64,000 nucleotides of DNA, from NCBI GenBank assembly GCA_003665825.1, contig QPFY01000011.1, positions 496,001 through 560,000 of the forward strand, written 5' to 3'. Made by a program: the position numbers and the translations under genes. This DNA comes from Microbotryum silenes-acaulis (taxonomy: Eukaryota > Basidiomycota > Microbotryomycetes > Microbotryales > Microbotryaceae). The notes under the pieces are model-generated. The model ran no database searches, was not told where the DNA came from, and was given only the letters and a program-made list of their open reading frames with translations. This document shows positions 7,140 to 17,270 of this stretch, in pieces (within the stretch, counting starts at the first letter, position 1; each line of letters starts with the position of its first letter).

Positions 7140-8420
7140 TTCATCCCGCTTTGTCGCTTACACGGTGAGGGGCATGCTGTAGACGCAGCAACCCCTGTCT
7201 GCGCCTTTCCGCCAGCTCGTCACCCAGGCGCGGTGGCATCCCCAAGCCCCAAGGAACTGACACCTAGCCTCCTTCTATGCTCTCACTTTGGCCACGCATC
7301 TCAACCGCAGTCTCGTATACCTGTCTCCTCCATCAGCATCTCCATATGGAGCGGACTCGAGGCAGTTCGGGGCGATTCCCAGGTCGACCGGAGCCCTTGT
7401 GCAGGACCCAGAGCCGAGAGCCCTTATCTTTGCTTGTGGTGCGCTAGACCGCTCTTGCTGCCATAATATGCATATTTGAAGCCGTTTCTCTGACTACGAC
7501 GAAGAGAGAAAGCATTGTAATGACATTGTAAACGCTATATAGAGCCCGCTGTTCCAGGGGTTCAATACGCTGCTCCACAAGTGTAGTGCTTGTTAAGACT
7601 TGTCGCTTCGGCGGGTACAATTTTTTGGACCACGAAAAATCGGCTGACCAAACTGTTGGACAATCCCATGCGCTACAAGAAGGTCAGAAAGGTGCAAAAA
7701 CAGGTAGATGGAGCCGGTGTTCCCTCTCCGTGGTACAGGTGAAGTTGGGTTCTTTTATACCCAGATTAAGGAGAAATGAGAAGTGAGTCTCCAGCTAGCC
7801 CTACAAATGGAGGCGACTCTACTTAAACAAAAGGCCCCATCTCCGACCGGCGCCCCCACCCAGTCTTTGTGGACTTTGTATGTCCGGTCGTGTCTCGCTC
7901 GGAACGTCGACTTGTCGAACTACGAGTCCTCTTCTTTCACTCGATCTGGAAGCTCTGTCGCCGTCGCTGATTCTCGTCGGATCTTTTGGAACCGATCGCC
8001 GAAACGGACTTCGAGGGGGGTGATCGGGCCGATGGCTCAGGAATTCGCCCGATGGCCCCGGCCGACCTGGAAATCGCCGTGAATCGCCTCGAGTCCACCC
8101 CGAATCGAGATGCTGATGGAGAGGAGGGGTGCAAGGTACTGCTATGAAGAGTCGTGGCCGAACTGAGGGCATGCAACGAGGCTAGGTGTGAATTCCTGGA
8201 GATTGGGGATGCCACCATGTGCCTGCCCGCCTGCAAGCAGTGCTGGCCCAGTGGATGCTGACGACGGCGAGGGAGCGAGGCGAGTCCCCGCCTTCATCTC
8301 CGGCAGTGAGTCCTTGACGTCGGTCCTGTATTTCGTTGAAATTAACATCTGCTCTTCCCGACACGAGGTCTTAGGGGACCCGGATCGACTCACCATCGTA
8401 AGCGAAACAAAGTTGTTCCC
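7140..8420. repeat. Diverged inverted repeat, possible remnant of a duplicated gene or element
   Basis: Two segments are recognisably related in opposite orientation: about 7140-7440 on the plus strand and about 8000-8420 read on the minus strand. Shared landmarks, in order, are CGCTTAC followed by a GTGAG donor-like site, GGTGGCATCCCCAA, CACACCTAGCCTC-like, CCATCAGCATCTC, GGACTCGAGGC and GAGCC. In one frame both translate to similar peptides around SPSAS...G.DSR.F.AI.RS. The arms are clearly diverged, unlike parts of the larger duplication to the right. The spacer (about 7450-7990) includes a TATATAG sequence near 7537. No transposase or reverse transcriptase is visible. It could be a decayed gene pair or a miniature element. 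Confidence 0.45.
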
Positions 8421-9446
8421 CGCTCCCGGGCCTTGGACAAAGCTCGCACCCTCTTGCACCTTCTCTAGCCATGACGATGGCTCCCCTGACCTGCATCAAA
8501 ATCACGACCGAGTACTCGAGATTTATCTGCGGTATAGGGGCTGAAGTGATGCAACCCTGTGGCGGTGCTAGCATTGTCGGTGATGGTGCGGGGGTCGCGG
8601 CCGGGTACTTCGGGCACCAAGCCGAGCGAACCCGTTTTTTCGGAGCAGATCAGAGTATGTAGATTGCCATGAAAGGAAAACGGTTAACGTGGCTCTGTTT
8701 GTTCACCCGAGTTGCATCGGTCAGCGATCGACATTGCGACATGTTGAGCACGCTCAGCGCTGAGCAAGAAGTAACTGCCTACCTTGGGAACAACAGGCTC
8801 AGGAGTACCAAGCCCCGGCCCAAGAGACAACGGACCCACCGCATCAGTCTCAAGGTGCACAGACCCCCATCAGATCCGAGTAGCTGTGTTACTTGATCTA
8901 ACCCGTGCCTATCGGCTGCTCGGCCAATTGAGCTCGAGTCAGCCTCCGATAATGTGGTCATCAATTCCGCGACGTTCGTACGTGTCGCTCACTGCGCCTC
9001 GATGCTGGGAAGGTACGGACAGTCGCCGAGTCGCCCATCAACATGAGAGGGTGTGGTCGTATCGGCATGGGTGCAGATATTGTGACGTCGATGCTGCATC
9101 GTCCCCGTCGACACGTGCAAGCGCCAGGCCGTCGACGATCGAGAGCGGACGATACAGCTCACGAGCAAGCGAGGTTTGGCACGCATACCAGAAATAACTC
9201 GCATGTCACGGACATCCTCGACAGCTATGGAGTTGACCAAGTGGTGAGCCCGGAGGTGTCGAGGGGATAGTCTATGGTGATGCAGATAAAGGCAAGGGAA
9301 GGCCCGAAAGGGGCCGAAACTCGAGGAATGGAAACCCCAGCTAGGCCACAAAAGGAGACGACACCGCGGATAGCTTCGGAACAGTGTGTTTTGTATACAA
9401 ACTTAGTACAAACAAAGCCCCCAGACACGAGCACCAACCAGTCACC

Positions 9447-11950
9447 TCACCTGTGCCTCGCCCCAATCAATGAGACAAATCCGACCGCGTCGGGCCGAAG
9501 CAAGACATTTCGCGCTCCTTCGTCATTGTGATGGAGACCCTCGTCGGCGATGAGTTTCAATGCGAGACTGCACGCACAGGAACGTCGAGTCGGCATCTAC
9601 AGATCAGCTGAGTCGAGTCGCGACACGGATTGCGACACGTCCATCCACGGTCTACGCACGATCCGGACTCACTCGACCTTGGCCTTCAACTCGGCATCCG
9701 CTTCCAATTGCTTGTGGGTGATCGGCGACCCTGCATCCTCCATCACGAAGATGTAGGCCTGTCCCTCGTTCCCACTCCGGTACAATTCATGGAAAGCGGG
9801 GAAGTACTCTTGTGCCTGGGAAGAAAGTAGAGGAACGATTGAGGTGTAGACAAAGTACTCCCGCGCGATCGAAGGGGAAAACTCTTCCCAAACGACTTTG
9901 GCCGCGAGCCTACCTCGTCCGACGCCTTTCGAGGAAGGACCAGAACGACCACCCATCGCCAACGGCAGATATGGGGCGGGCGGCGAGTAAGGCGTGCTCG
10001 TAACATCAAGGGGCGATCGTGGAGACGTGTTGGGTGTTGTCTCGTGCGATGGCGTAGGCGTTGAGGGGCTGGCGCTCGTAGTGAAAGACCTTTCCCCGGT
10101 GGAAACGCTCGAATCCGGACTTGCATTGCCCGCGCTGTGCAACCATTCGGCCTGCCAAACCGAGCTGCTCGCTCCGCGGCCGACTCGACGGACCAGATCC
10201 AGTCGCGACGTGAGCGTCGAAGCGAAGGGTGGCGAAAAACTACTCTCGGCTTTGGTGAATCGTTCGTCGAACGAGTATACTACATCGGACGAAAACAACC
10301 GCCGTATCGCAAGGGGTAGAGTCTCAGTGAGTTTCGGTCGAGGCGCAGCCGAGTCAAGACGAATCTTCTTCGCCGGTGGCGACAGGTGCGAAAGCGATGG
10401 TGCGGTACCGACTTCGAGTTCGATTGGGACCGCTACCATTCGAGAATCGTGCAATTTTCCCGTATCGCAGACAATCTGCATTCCGAAACGTGCGCAGCTG
10501 ATTAGTTCCAGTCCGATTCGAAGGCTACGTACAGACGAAAAGTTGAACTCGCTTACCGCCCGGTCCGGGAAATGACGAGCCATCACAGTCTGGTTACCTT
10601 GGTTGACAAAAGCTTTCAACTCCTCTGAAGAGTCGGACGTGTCGTCCGGTCGACGGATCGAGGTTGATGCAGCGGCTTCGTCGCTCCGGGCAGTGCTGGT
10701 ATGAGCGGGAGACGAATTGTCGAGCGTCGACTCGCGAGGGACATCGTCGGTGGGTTGGACCTCATTCACCACAGTCAGTTCATCAAGCTGCTTCACGTAA
10801 TCACGGATTCGCTGTTCCACCTCTGAGGAGTGACCTTCTACGCGGTAGTCGTCAAAGACATTCATGAGGGTGCCGAGTAGGACGCCCATGAGCGATTTAG
10901 GCTTGGCAGTCGAATGCTCGGGCTCGACCACTGCCGAGCACAGGTCGCTGATCAGTAGGTGCCGTTTTCCATCGATAACGACCACGAGAGGTAGTAGGGT
11001 AAGCGAAGCAACGAGGTCAGCGAGTTTGGCCTGGCCAGCGAAGGCTCGGAGGAAAAACTTTGACAGCATACCGACCTAATTCGGTGACGACAAAGTACGG
11101 CAAAGCCAAGATGATTGCAAATCGGCAGTGGCCAGACGAGATGGCATGTAAGGCGATCTAGGATCAGACAATGGGAGATGGTCAGATACGAGATAATTCA
11201 TCGGTAGCAATTTCTGGGCGGCTTCGCGCTAACACGCTTGGATTTGAGACCTACCTTAGCTGCAATGGCCCTGGCGGCTTCCAGTCTGACAGGTTCGCCT
11301 GTAGCAGTCACCACACGGATGTCCAATAGATCTGCACCGAGTCCTGGCCTGACAGCGGCTGATACACTTGGTGAACTGTCGTAGTGGGTCTTGAGGTCGC
11401 TGGCCATGTAGCCATGTAGCACCACCGGGTTGAAGACCATGTCGTCCTCGGGGGCGGGTGACGACGGGGGCGGACGCGCCCCTCTACGCGGTAGGAAACT
11501 CATGAAGTAGTACTCTCGACTAGCTACGGAGTGAGAGGGATACTTGTCGTCCGTTGCCGACTCCACGGAGGCCAAAGAGTCGTGGATGGTGGCTTGGATC
11601 GTGGGGTTCACCACTCGTAGTGCCATGTTGGGGAGGGCCACACCGAGTCCGGTCTCGACGCTGTCGATCACTCGACGGCGAGAGACCTCGCCGTCGATGT
11701 AATAGCCCATTGCGACGGGCAAGGGTGAATAACGCTGGCCACTCTTGTCGAGCCCTCGTCCGAGCCCCGAGAGGACCCTGTCGACAAGCGAAGAGTCGTG
11801 GCACGCGCTGATCAGGTCCAGTCCAGGTGGGAAGTGTTCACCTGGACCGCGCCGCGTGAGCGGAGGTGGTTCTTCAGGCTCGGCCCTTGTGTCGACCATG
11901 AACGTTGTAGAGTGGAAGACGAAGCTGAGCAAGTCGTTGAATGTAGCCAT
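9447..11950 (-). pseudogene. Kinase-like gene, left palindrome copy (apparently frameshifted)
   Basis: Exon 1 starts at the ATG at 11948-11950 (MATFNDLLSFVF) and stays open for about 230 codons to AAIAAKVGL, where a GTAGGT donor gives an intron ending CTAG near 11160. The next exon (IALHAISSGHCRFAIIL, then FVVTELGRYAVK) meets an apparent one-base insertion near 11056-11064. It then returns to a 460-codon frame running to AELKAKV. That frame holds kinase-like landmarks: a glycine loop VGRGASSSVW, a Lys-bearing strand LAAKVVWEE and a hinge region YIFVMEDAG. After a further intron comes a catalytic-loop-like HHNDEGARNVLL (HxD with Asn five residues on) and a TGA at 9447-9449. There is no DFG. 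The protein resembles the divergent kinase-like families expanded in fungi; the exact family is unknown. It may be a decaying gene, or an unrecognised intron may rescue it. Confidence 0.6.
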
Positions 11951-12024
11951 ATCGTATTGGCACTATGCGAGTGTTCTGAATGAACAATAGCCAGCGCCTG
12001 CAGTCGCAGCGCCCCGGGTGTCTG

Positions 12025-12032
12025 TGACGTCA
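12025..12032. promoter_or_regulatory. CRE-like TGACGTCA upstream of the left kinase-like copy
   Basis: A perfect palindromic TGACGTCA lies about 75 bp upstream of the left copy's start codon. This is the consensus for CREB/ATF-type bZIP factors. The right copy has only a partial version (GACGTCA, near 13823) at the equivalent place. A second perfect TGACGTCA occurs at about 25676, upstream of the hydrolase gene. A functional role is inferred. Confidence 0.3.
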
Positions 12033-13849
12033 CTGGAGTAGTACTCACCTCAGGCGTACCTTCAAAGGTACAGTGCACGCCAAAAACCTCAATCCTCAGC
12101 GAGTTTCATACTGGGGTGCCAGGAGTCCCCATCCCGGGGCCGTCAAGGGGACAGCAGTGTGTGTACTCCAACTACGAGATTATTGCGATGGGTCGAAGCC
12201 CCTAAAAATACTTCCCAAGCTGCCATGTGATGCCACTTCGAATATCTTCGTCTTGTCAGAGTCTCGATGGCCTCCGAGCTGAATCTGCGGCCCTGCGCTG
12301 GGTGCTTCACGGTCACGTGCAACCCGTGATCGAAGTCTGTTCTGTTGAAGTCGCGACCAACGGCGCGGCCGCGGCGGCGGCCAGAGTACGGCCAGCCCTG
12401 GCCAGCCGCAGCCAGCCGCGCGCTGCCGCGCGCCAAACCGCACGTGCCTATTCCTGTCCTTCCAACGCCCGGCCCTCTCCTTTATGTCTCTCTGTATTGC
12501 CTTGTTCTAACTTGGACCAAGTTTCCTTGCATCTCTAAGACAGGCTATCACACAACCGCCGTCATGCCACTTCTTCCGATCTTGTACACCTCCGCACCAT
12601 CGAGGTCAGCCCACAACGCTCAAATCTCGACGACGTGTTAAGCCTCGCGTCCACCACTAGCGACAGCCGATCCTCCCGCCGCACCGAACACGCACAATAT
12701 GTGTACTCCGGTCCACTTCTACGCAACAAGTGTCAGCACTCGATGATGTGGTTGTCAAGTGCAGTCTTGGGCAACTCGTGCGCAGCAGCATCAACTTCAG
12801 CATGGATCTCAGGCTGAAGGAGCTTTGTCGGGCGCACCACGTGGAAGGGTACTCCAGGAGGAATTCGCTTGCGAAAGAGCTATTTCTACAAGCACTCCTT
12901 TGGTCGTGCGATACCAACTGTGATGCTTGTTCGAATGGATATGTCTTCAGGCGGCAACAAGCCGCGAGTCCCGTGACTCCGCCACGTCGTCATTGCTTCC
13001 CCGATCACAGAGCATACGCATCAAGTCCTGTCGACGGGCTTCGAGCCGATCTGAACGAGGAAGTACAGGAAAATCGCGAGAAGTTCTCAGTGACTAACTC
13101 CAAACGAACGATGCACAGACGTCCACCGCTGCAGCCTGAACCCGAACAAGCAGAACTGTCAGAGAGTATAATGCTGCTTCATCCCACTCAGAGTCCCGAT
13201 TATGATCAGTTACTAGTTGTAGGTAGTAGTAACCATCCCTCAGCCGTCCCACGGGCGTCCCGACCCCGTCCCAAAGTTAAGCCATCCTCAAAATACACCC
13301 CCTTTTTGCTATGTGGGCGAGGAGGGGCCAGCAATGGTATACAACACTCTACCAAGCTTTCTCCGGGCCAAAAAAACAGAAAAGAGCTAGCTGCCTTACG
13401 TCCTTACCGCGCGCTGCAGTTCATTTGGCTGGGCCAATGAGCTGCCGACCTGACGCTTGGTCGCTCGTCGAGCGTCTCGTGTCGGCCAAGTAATACGACG
13501 AGCAATCTCCGACTGAACGACGTTTGTGCCAAACTCTGTTGATGAAAATAGTGAATATATAATAACTGGCTTGGTTTGGGCTTGGGGGCGAATTTCTCCA
13601 CGACACGCCCCCGCGAAGAAACCGGCGGGGCAGCGCAAGCAAGGGGGGGGGGGGGGGCCAAACGGGGTGGCGGGCGGGAAAGCAAAAAAAATCTGAAGTT
13701 TCGAGCAACAGGCGATGTTGCGAGCGAGAGCAGTTGGTTCTAGCAAGAGGGAGTGATTCACACCGCACTCGCCTTTCGACTCGCTCGGCGCGCCCGTTGG
13801 TCGCCTTTGGCAACCGGCCAAGACGTCACCGTAGTGATCTTCGGCGTGG
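12033..13849. other. Spacer between palindrome arms, no confident gene
   Basis: The longest plus-strand frame (12730-13440) lacks family motifs and has unremarkable composition, so I do not call it. Visible structure includes a GC-rich patch of GGCCAG/GCCGCG repeats at about 12358-12435, a run of 15 G residues at about 13643-13657, and an AT-rich patch (AATATATAATAAC) near 13552-13566. Nothing resembling a transposase, integrase or reverse transcriptase was found. The spacer could hold short transcribed elements that sequence reading alone cannot show. Confidence 0.4.
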
Positions 13850-13888
13850 GCTCCGACTGCAAGCGCTGCTCGTTCATTCAGGACGCTC

Positions 13889-16413
13889 ATGTTCGATATG
13901 GCTACGTTCGCCGACTTGCTCAGCTTCGTTTTCCCCTCGACAGGGTTCATGGTCGACGATACGGCCGAGCCCGAAGCACCTCCTCCCCTCACACAGCGCG
14001 GGCCAGGTGAATACTTCCCGCCTGGACTAGACCTGATCAGTGCCTGCCACGACTCTTCGCTCGTTGATAGGGTCCTGTCGGCTCTGGGACGAGGACTTGA
14101 CAAGAATGGGAAGCTTGACCTGGCCTTGCCTTTGACAATCGACAGCGCGGTCGTGTGGGACCGTTATGTGATCTACAGCGTGGACATCGCACTCGGACGA
14201 CTTAACTTGATGGCAATGAAAGTGGTGTCCATGCTCAAGGCGATCGGTGACGAACGTTTAAATTTTGATGTGTCAACAGCGAACGACAAGCACCATCCTC
14301 TGTCCGTGGCCAGTTGCGAGTACTATTTGTTCAGAGTCCCACCCGACGACGGCGCGCCGCCTCCGTCACCCGGCCCTACTAAGGACGACGAGGGCAGGTT
14401 CACCCCGGTGGTCATACATGGCTACAAGGCCAGTGATATCAAGACGTACTATGACGGTCTAACAAATGCATCGGGCGTTGAAAGACCAGGACTTGGTGCA
14501 CATCTACTCGACATTCGCATCGTCAACGCCACAGGCGAATTGGTCAGACTGGAAGGGGCCAAGGCCATTGCCGCCAAGGTGGGGCTCACATTCACGGGCG
14601 AAGCCGCCCGGGTGCGTTGCAGTCGGTGGGTGTTCTCATTTCTGACCATCTCACCTTTTGCATCCCAGATTGCCTTGCATGCCACCTCGCGCGGCGATCG
14701 TCGGTTTGCAATCATCTTGGTTTGCCGTACTTTGTCGTCACCGAACTGGGTCGGTATAATTTCCTGCGAGCCTTCGCTGGCCAGGCCAAACTCGCTGACC
14801 TCGTTGCTTCGCTTACCCTACTACCTCTCGTGGTCGTTATCGATGGAAAACGGCACCTACTGATCAGCGACCTGTGCTCGGCAGTGGTCGAGCCCGAGCA
14901 TTCGACTGCCAAGCCTAAATCGCTCATGGGCGTCCTACTCGGCACCCTCATGAATGTCTTTGACGACTACCGCGTAGAAGGTCACTCCTCAGAGGTGGAA
15001 CAGCGAATCCGTGATTACGTGAAGCAGCTTGATGAACTGACTGTGGTGAATGAGGTCCAACCCACCGACGATGTCCCTCGCGAGTCGACGCTCGACAATT
15101 CGTCTCCCGCTCATACCAGCACTGCCCGGAGCGACGAAGCCGCTGCATCAACCTCGATCCGTCGACCGGACGACACGTCCGACTCTTCAGAGGAGTTGAA
15201 AGCTTTTGTCAACCAAGGTAACCAGACTGATGGCTCGTCATTTCCCGGACCGGGCGGTAAGCGAGGTCGACATCTCCTCTGTGCGCAGCCTCGAAACTGA
15301 TCTGCTCACGATCATCTGCTCGGTCGTGACGGAGAACAGATTGTGTGCGATGTCAAAGAATTGCCCGACTCTCGAATGGTAGCGATACCCATCGAACTCG
15401 AAGTGGACACCGCACCCGCGCTTTCGCCCCAGCAGCCACCGGCCAAAAAGATTCGTCTCGACTCGGATGCGCCCCGGCCGAAGCTCACTGAAACTCTACC
15501 CCTTGCGATACAGGAGTTGTTCTCCCCCGACACATTCTTCAGCAAGGCGGAAGGCACACTCTCCTCACCGCTCGCCTCGGCGCTTACCTCGCGACTGAAT
15601 CTGGTGCGTCGAGTCGGCCGCGGAGCGGGTAGCTCGGTTTGGCAGGCCGAATGGTTGCATCACAGCGCGGGCAGTGCATGTCCGAGTCTGAGCGCTTCCA
15701 CCAGAAAGAGTTCTTCGACTACGAGCGCTTCCACCGGGAAGAGTTCTTCGACTACGAGCGCTTCCACCGGGAAGAGTTCTTTCACTACGAGCGCCAACCC
15801 CTCAACGCCTACGCCATCACCCCAGACAACACCCAACACATCTCCACGATCGCTACTTGATGTCAGGAGCACCCCTGACTCCTCACCCACCCCAGATCTG
15901 CCGTTGACAATGAATGGTCTTTCCTCGACAGGCATTGGCGGACGAGGGAAGCTCGTAGCCAAAGTCGTTTGGGAAGAGTTTTCCCCTTCGATCGCGCGGG
16001 AGTACTTTGTCTACACCTCAATCGTTCCTCTACTTTCTTCCCAGGCACAAGAGTACTTCCCCGCTTTCCATGAATTGTACCGGAGTGGGAACGAGGGACA
16101 GGCCTACATCTTCGTGATGGAGGATGCAGGGTCGCCGATCACCCACAAGCAATTGGAAGCGGATGCCGAGTTGAAGGCCAAGGTCGAGTGAGTCCGGATC
16201 GTGCGTAGACCGTGGATGGACGTGTCGCAATCCGTGTCGCGACTCGACTCAGCTGATCTGTAGATGCCGACTCGACGTTCCTGTGCGTGCAGTCTCGCAT
16301 TGAAACTCATCGCCGACGAGGGTCTCCATCACAATGACGAAGGAGCGCGAAATGTCTTGCTTCGGCCCGACGCGGTCGGATTTGTCTCATTGATTGGGGC
16401 GAGGCACAGGTGA
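13889..16413 (+). pseudogene. Kinase-like gene, right palindrome copy (apparently frameshifted)
   Basis: This is the inverted paralogue of the gene at 9447-11950. Exon 1 starts at 13889 (MFDMATFADLLSFVF) and is open for about 230 codons, clearly diverged from the left copy yet aligning throughout (FPPGLDLISACHDSSLVDRV is shared). Against the left copy it lacks one base near 14720 and two bases near 15228, so the central segment is out of frame; after the second loss the frame is restored. The downstream part keeps the VGRGAGSSVW glycine loop, LVAKVVWEE, VMEDAG and, after an intron with a GTGAGT donor, HHNDEGARNVLL. It ends at the same TGA as the left copy. A Ser/Thr-rich insert holds three tandem 33-nt units (15691-15789) where the left copy has only one. 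Function is unknown. Confidence 0.6.
15691..15789 (+). repeat. Three tandem 33-nt units within the right kinase-like copy
   Basis: Units at 15691-15723, 15724-15756 and 15757-15789 each encode an 11-residue motif (SASTRKSSSTT, SASTGKSSSTT, SASTGKSSFTT). The corresponding part of the left copy has a single related unit (TGERSFTT). This is an in-frame minisatellite expansion specific to one arm, placed in the low-complexity linker between the glycine loop and the Lys-bearing strand. Confidence 0.9.
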
Positions 16414-16895
16414 GGTGACTGGTTGGTGCTCGTGTCTGGGGGCTTTGTTTGTACTAAGTTTGTATACAAAACACACTGTTCCGAAGCTATCCGCGGTGTC
16501 GTCTCCTTTTGTGGCCTAGCTGGGGTTTCCATTCCTCGAGTTTCGGCCCCTTTCGGGCCTTCCCTTGCCTTTATCTGCATCACCACAGACTATCCCCTCG
16601 ACACCGCCGGGCTCACCACTTGATCAACCCCATAGCTATCGAGGATGTCCGTTTCATGCGAGTCACTTCTGGTATGCGCGTCAAACCTCGCTTGCTCGTG
16701 AGCTATCCCCTCCGCTCTCGATCATTACTGACGTCGAGGCGTCTGGGTCACGGTAGCCCAGTGGCGCTTGCACGTGTCGACGAGGACGATGCAGCATCGA
16801 CGACACAATATCTGCACCTATGCTGATACGACCACACCCTCTCACGTTGATGGGCGACTCGGCTACTTTCCGTAGCGCCCCAGCATTGAGACGCA

Positions 16896-17270
16896 GCTTC
16901 TACACGTGTTCTTCTTCTGGGGTCTTGAGAATCTTTCGCGGGTTTGTCTTTTAGGCGCCGCCCGAGTTCTAGGCGTTCATTTGCTTCCTGCTAGCACCAA
17001 AAAAAAAACGACCTATAAAAGCCATTCTGACCTCAGACTAGCCTTCCTTGCTCAACCTGGAAGACCCAGTCTTTGTCTGTCAGGTCGGTCGGTCTGAAAG
17101 TGGCGCTGCCAGTCGACCCTACGGGAAATCCGCGCAACCGCAGTTAGACCGCGGTCGACTTTGGCGCGACGATCGAGCCAAAGTGCGGGCACTCCCGTAG
17201 GGGCCAGTCGCCCCGCCAGCGCCTTCCCCTCCTCCTCTCCCACCTCAAGCAAACCCCAGTGGAAAGCATC
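16896..17270. other. Intergenic between the palindrome and the Asterix-like gene
   Basis: It contains an A9 run near 17000 followed by a TATAAAA at 17014-17020, about 250 bp upstream of the next start codon and possibly part of its promoter. It also has a pair of related segments around GGTCGGTCGG and GCGGTCGACT. No coding potential was recognised. Confidence 0.35.

Follow-up and report, generated by a model that had tools for sequence, protein, structure and literature searches.

A head-to-head pair of kinase-like genes in Microbotryum silenes-acaulis is identical over two sharply bounded tracts and strongly diverged elsewhere, and we are highly confident that this patchwork is best explained by an old inverted duplication followed by recent gene conversion from arm to arm. 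The pair was studied within a stretch of 64,000 nucleotides of contig QPFY01000011.1, referred to as the window; positions are those of the window unless another contig is named. Gene conversion had already been proposed in a preliminary description of this DNA. The proposal holds up, i.e., the perfect tracts are sharp-edged, dS between the arms is 0 inside them compared to 0.36-0.68 outside, and the phylogeny switches by segment.

Self-comparison of the window yields the following arrangement.

8992-11954, minus strand: left arm with kinase-like gene L and its 3' flank, transcribed leftwards
11955-13893, no strand: non-repeated spacer between the two 5' ends
13894-16896, plus strand: right arm with kinase-like gene R and its 3' flank, transcribed rightwards

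That is, two inverted arms of ~3 kb are present as described before, with genes L and R head-to-head. The spacer is present as well, with a length of 1939 bp by self-comparison rather than the ~1.85 kb given earlier. It contains a run of 15 G (13643-13657), which is a likely spot for sequencing errors or fork stalling. Two additional features were observed at or near the left arm. A further inverted repeat of ~165 bp and 77% identity (7232-7395 / 8054-8216) is located ~0.8 kb beyond the arm. The outer end of the arm (8990-9037) has a 92% match over 48 bp at C11:840040-840087 and may contain a short dispersed repeat that marks the boundary of the duplication. An Rfam scan of the window gave 0 matches.

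Within the arms, we distinguish the segments below, for which tract A was delimited by base-level alignment.

10548-11048, minus strand: tract A of the left arm; 499 ungapped columns paired with right-arm positions 14767-15265, including one 2-bp length difference
14767-15265, plus strand: tract A of the right arm; the tract reaches at its 3' edge a few bases into a putative intron (~15257-15339)
9903-10547, minus strand: diverged stretch between the tracts in the left arm, paired with right-arm positions 15266-15957; dS 0.364
15690-15794, plus strand: 33-bp minisatellite of 3.2 copies between the tracts in the right arm; the left arm has a 66-column gap
9275-9902, minus strand: tract B of the left arm; 628 bp identical to right-arm positions 15958-16585
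15958-16585, plus strand: tract B of the right arm; spans the final portion of the kinase-like part together with the last intron, the last exon and the 3' flank
16188-16292, plus strand: putative intron of 105 bp in tract B (GTGAGT...GTGCAG), placed by eye from reading frames and homologous proteins

The two essentially identical blocks reported earlier are recovered as perfect runs whose ends deviate by at most 2 bp from those given. Identity along the aligned arms is patchy: 0 mismatches are found in the 499 + 628 columns of the tracts, compared to 398 mismatches in 1749 ungapped columns (22.8%) outside. If the 20 columns just past tract B are included, the tracts show 1 mismatch in 1147 columns; past position 9275, one mismatch is followed by 19 further identical bp, to position 9255. 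Tract A comprises a perfect run of 461 bp (left 10588-11048, right 14767-15227; base-level alignment), followed by the 2-bp length difference, after which identity resumes for 38 bp up to left position 10548 and right position 15265. Its edge is sharp, i.e., the 499 mismatch-free columns are succeeded by ten mismatches between left positions 10547 and 10519. The minisatellite of the right arm codes in frame for a Ser/Thr-rich repeat.

Runs of this length are not expected from the overall divergence of the arms. Among 20000 permutations (399 mismatches in 2896 columns), none produced a run of at least 461, and the longest run was 43.7 on average and 106 at maximum. For a divergence of 7%, which is the lowest value among the 100-column stretches sampled outside the blocks, the run probability is near 10^-20 (628) and 10^-14.5 (461), respectively. 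Arm-to-arm dS is 0.677 for the N-terminal part and 0.364 between the tracts; synonymous differences within the tracts amount to 0 in 123 sites (tract A) and 0 in 79.7 sites (coding part of tract B). The pair therefore shows the hallmarks of interlocus gene conversion, namely sharp-edged identity between diverged paralogues with homogenisation of neutral sites, too. A rise in GC content within the tracts was not seen in a coarse test (tract A 0.573, tract B 0.549 vs. 0.565-0.585 in the diverged parts of the arms).

Tract B reaches well beyond coding sequence. The putative 105-bp intron is the same in both arms (right 16188-16292, left 9568-9672), and ~170 bp past the end of the coding sequence of the homologues are also inside the tract. 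As judged by eye, the second block thus indeed contains an intron and untranslated flank, as had been stated before. Homologues P0001 to P0003 read through into the last 14 residues of the protein, and two paralogues on contig C1 match continuously across them. Both window arms shift frame at the same place just before these residues, within tract B. Given that the frame change is common to both arms within the tract and not found in the relatives, conversion probably spread the lesion; the simplest reading is probably a single frame-changing lesion that was copied along with tract B. The right arm shows an additional frame change elsewhere, and therefore at least one gene of the pair is probably broken. 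Sequencing errors are a possible source of the frame changes, too.

All of the 8 distinct homologous proteins found in three protein searches stem from Microbotryum, with relatives in M. silenes-dioicae, M. saponariae, M. lychnidis-dioicae and M. intermedium; each search scored only the ~8000 candidates sharing most words. Searching with the family alignment provided no additional relatives among the ~8000 candidates scored. In the window's genome, at least 19 places match the family at E <= 2.2e-11. With regard to function, Pfam assigns 0 families to the 4/4 window protein pieces scanned, and an APH match occurs in 6/6 homologues scanned (of 8) with E-values of 0.0037-0.031 and 14.5-17.5 bits, i.e., below the 23.2-bit cut-off. 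A profile search against solved structures gave kinases (best E = 0.0029), with matches over 36-50 C-terminal profile positions, and a structure model of P0003 built from 7 sequences has a mean pLDDT of 29.5, which is too low to be informative. Together with motifs recognised by eye, the weak APH/kinase matches provide a lead that the protein may carry a small domain of kinase type in its C-terminal part.

We compared segment-wise phylogenies across species, which was done on the protein level only and with window protein rows read across frame changes. Here, WL and WR denote the two window arms, sdL and sdR the M. silenes-dioicae proteins g06093 and g06094 (adjacent numbers), sapL the M. saponariae protein Chr9g10408 (we take Chr9 of this relative to be an autosome) and ldR the M. 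lychnidis-dioicae protein MVLG_02976. In the N-terminal part (285 columns), WR groups with sdR and ldR with support 100/100, and WL groups weakly with sdL and sapL (77/76). A grouping of WL with WR is rejected for the N-terminal part (p-AU 7e-07), between the tracts (93 columns, p-AU 0.017) and also just upstream of tract B (63 columns, p-AU 0.003). The tree of tract A (166 columns) places WL as sister to WR, with a weak node (71/64), and each of the two groupings by arm is rejected (p-AU 0.0007 and 0.005). Owing to a frame change, the protein row of the right arm is read wrongly at the tract A edge, such that 8 of 144 columns differ from the left row even though the DNA is identical; the tract A tree therefore understates the likeness of WL and WR. 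In tract B, the identical WL and WR rows are placed with sdL (70/74). That is, paralogues group by species in tract A and by locus in the N-terminal part. The N-terminal part of the left arm is mixed, since both arms are of right type at 14 of 78 diagnostic sites. Since sdL matches the left arm in its N-terminal part and sdR the right arm, the duplication appears older than the split from that species, and as far as sequence can tell, the inverted duplication predates the split of several Microbotryum species.

The residues that distinguish sdL from sdR also bear on the direction of copying. Between left positions 10031 and 9905, sdL and sdR differ at 17 sites, of which both window arms follow their respective arm at 9, only one does at 3 and neither at 5. 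Just inside tract B, both arms carry the sdL and not the sdR residue at five sites (left positions 9890, 9884, 9878, 9821 and 9818). At these five sites, sapL has the sdR residues, i.e., the left type is represented by sdL alone. Over all 11 differing sites of tract B, the window agrees with sdL at 6 and with sdR at 5; at the six sites besides the five above, it has the sdR residue in five cases and the sdL residue in one. At several of these six sites, the state of sdL seems to have arisen later, given that the window's residue also occurs in other members of the family. Copying of tract B from left to right is therefore more likely by residue comparison. Tract A comprises 7 diagnostic sites, where both arms show the right type at the 4 sites nearest to the 5' end and the left type at the 3 nearest to the 3' end. 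The right-type residues suggest that the 5' part was probably copied from right to left. The left-type residues at the 3' end may reflect later changes that M. silenes-dioicae and M. lychnidis-dioicae have in common, or they may result from a second event; that is, tract A may represent more than one conversion event.

Homogenisation is not confined to the window pair. The proteins sdL and sdR agree in all 70 residues of a stretch that differs between the arms of the window (corresponding to left positions 10409-10184), and along this homogenised stretch sdL groups with sdR and ldR (96/91). The comparison with relatives, which had been put forward as a check, thus shows homogenisation on the protein level for the M. 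silenes-dioicae pair, at a different place. At the 17 sites upstream of tract B, the residue of sapL is that of sdR in 10 cases and that of sdL in 2. Furthermore, the same genome holds a second inverted pair of the family:

C1:2359543-2361756 and C1:2363582-2365753: tail-to-tail family pair with a spacer of ~1.8 kb

This pair has a perfect run of 850 bp, compared to a longest run of 210 in 10000 permutations. Outside of its near-identical block of 915 bp, 158 of 1248 columns differ (12.7%). One of its arms stops within the kinase-like part, near the end of identity. When 16 of the 19 family copies counted were compared in both orientations (120 pairs), perfect runs above 99 bp occurred only in the window pair and the second C1 pair, both of which are adjacent and inverted. 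Direct neighbours (C1 2355 and 2359 kb), which serve as a control, have a longest common run of at most 24 bp. A third inverted family pair (C1 1887/1889 kb; 68.5% identity over 232 bp) is without a tract, which counts against a simple inversion rule. The conversion had been called ongoing in the preliminary description. This is supported in the sense of recent events, with further cases in related species and in the second C1 pair, and not in the sense of present activity.

Two further observations concern other family copies. The third longest run among the 120 pairs (99 bp, perfect) is shared by C18:522267 and C9:1233893, i.e., by different contigs. On C21, C35 and C46, weak matches to the kinase-like exon recur every ~10.03 kb, a spacing that resembles a long tandem repeat; most of these matches lie in open frames of 231 residues.

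Strong purifying selection could in principle hold both blocks identical, and tract B spans the gene region with the best DNA matches between paralogues (69-72%). Against this, there are 0 synonymous changes in ~203 sites, the putative intron and the 3' flank are identical as well, and no other copy matches the DNA of tract A among the genome matches listed. In addition, four relatives differ from the left arm in 12-17% of 144 residues of tract A, so the block is not slow-evolving. We assign selection a next to negligible probability. A different history would be a recent inverted duplication in which identity is ancestral, with other family copies as the later source of the diverged stretches. 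Such import would yield patchwork identity as well, and the at least 19 family places are possible sources. However, each of the two arm-specific N-terminal parts has counterparts of its own in other species, which makes the duplication old rather than recent. Moreover, none of the genome matches listed is comparably close: apart from the arms themselves, they reach 69-72% over a few hundred bp, 75% over 87 bp and 92% over 48 bp, and none of comparable length is closer to either arm than the arms are to each other. We thus consider later import highly improbable.

An assembly artefact, i.e., reads of one arm that were collapsed into those of the other, or polished towards them, along the tracts, has to be weighed given a genome assembly of 29.85 Mb in 88 contigs, and the small length differences at or near the tracts might be sequencing errors. 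Yet each tract is flanked in both arms by that arm's own diverged stretches, the window is without N, and the separately annotated M. silenes-dioicae proteins show a similar patchwork at another place, such that we deem an artefact very unlikely. Conversion might also have been mediated by cDNA from a spliced RNA intermediate, since tract A corresponds approximately to one exon and ends a few bases into the next putative intron. But these intron bases are themselves part of the tract edge, and tract B retains its putative intron and flank unchanged. The chances of the cDNA route are about as slim as those of later import.

Based on direct arm-to-arm conversion after an old duplication, the following course of events is proposed. 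A kinase-like gene would have been duplicated in inverted orientation before several Microbotryum species split, resulting in the head-to-head pair. A break or stalled fork in one arm would presumably have been repaired using the other arm, a few kb off, as template, whereby a few hundred bp would be copied. In the lineage of the window, at least 2 recent events would account for the 499 columns of tract A and the 628 bp of tract B, and a lesion that changes the frame would have passed between the two genes in the course of copying. The tracts with their sharp edges, the switch of phylogeny by segment and the recurrence in a relative and in the second pair are observed, while the repair step, the directions of copying and the passing-on of the lesion are inferred and less certain. 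Tentatively, and with considerable doubt, one may go further and regard adjacent inverted pairs of the Microbotryum kinase-like family as two-way modules, with tracts of opposite direction, shuffling of L and R exons, species-specific mosaics and lesions that at times spread to both genes.

How does the pair relate to known systems? Inverted hsp70 pairs of Drosophila undergo concerted evolution with nearly uniform coding regions, while identity in the window pair comes in patches that differ by species. The wtf meiotic drivers of fission yeast are a multicopy fungal family linked with nonallelic gene conversion; the present genes are different ones, and both families are fungal and multicopy. 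The closest fungal precedent is found in Aspergillus flavus/oryzae, for which recursive ectopic conversion between paralogues, some on opposite strands, is described as independent per species (PMC12844118). According to this account, conversion includes introns, and gene-splitting stop codons are copied to the paralogue (PMC12844118). The likeness thus lies in paralogues homogenised species-wise, introns included, with lesions being spread. The Aspergillus case is reported for several paralogue groups in proximal regions of one chromosome, with paralogues that are similar over their length (PMC12844118), whereas the window pair is head-to-head, with sharp-edged tracts below gene size and arm identity kept elsewhere. 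For human Y palindromes such as P6, arms that are >99.9% identical, mean tracts of 2068 bp and a GC bias are given (PMC3723533). The window pair resembles them in having inverted arms with conversion between them, but its arms are ~23% diverged outside of perfect runs of 0.5-0.6 kb, without a rise in GC.

With regard to tract length, a review gives an average minimum for ectopic conversion in yeast of ~500 bp according to one study and of 200-300 bp according to most (PMC3924818). At 0.5-0.85 kb, the runs in the Microbotryum pairs somewhat exceed these values, and two or more events may have merged in each of them. For transposable elements of Microbotryum, conversion among old copies is judged rare in a survey of the genus (PMC10502011); gene pairs and transposons may differ in this respect. 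Among the matches listed for literature on Microbotryum gene conversion, palindromes, concerted evolution and paralogs, no title concerns this pair.

Interlocus gene conversion is a known process, of which the pair is a well-resolved new case, such that its value lies in resolution and recurrence. Conversion in a fungus is documented here with unusual clarity, i.e., one end keeps arm identity, edges are defined at the level of single bases, and the tract of a relative is located elsewhere. Caution is advised for such pairs, as orthology and dating vary with the segment chosen. Comparing this one 8-kb locus across Microbotryum strains could yield the tract length, the direction and the divergence limit of conversion.
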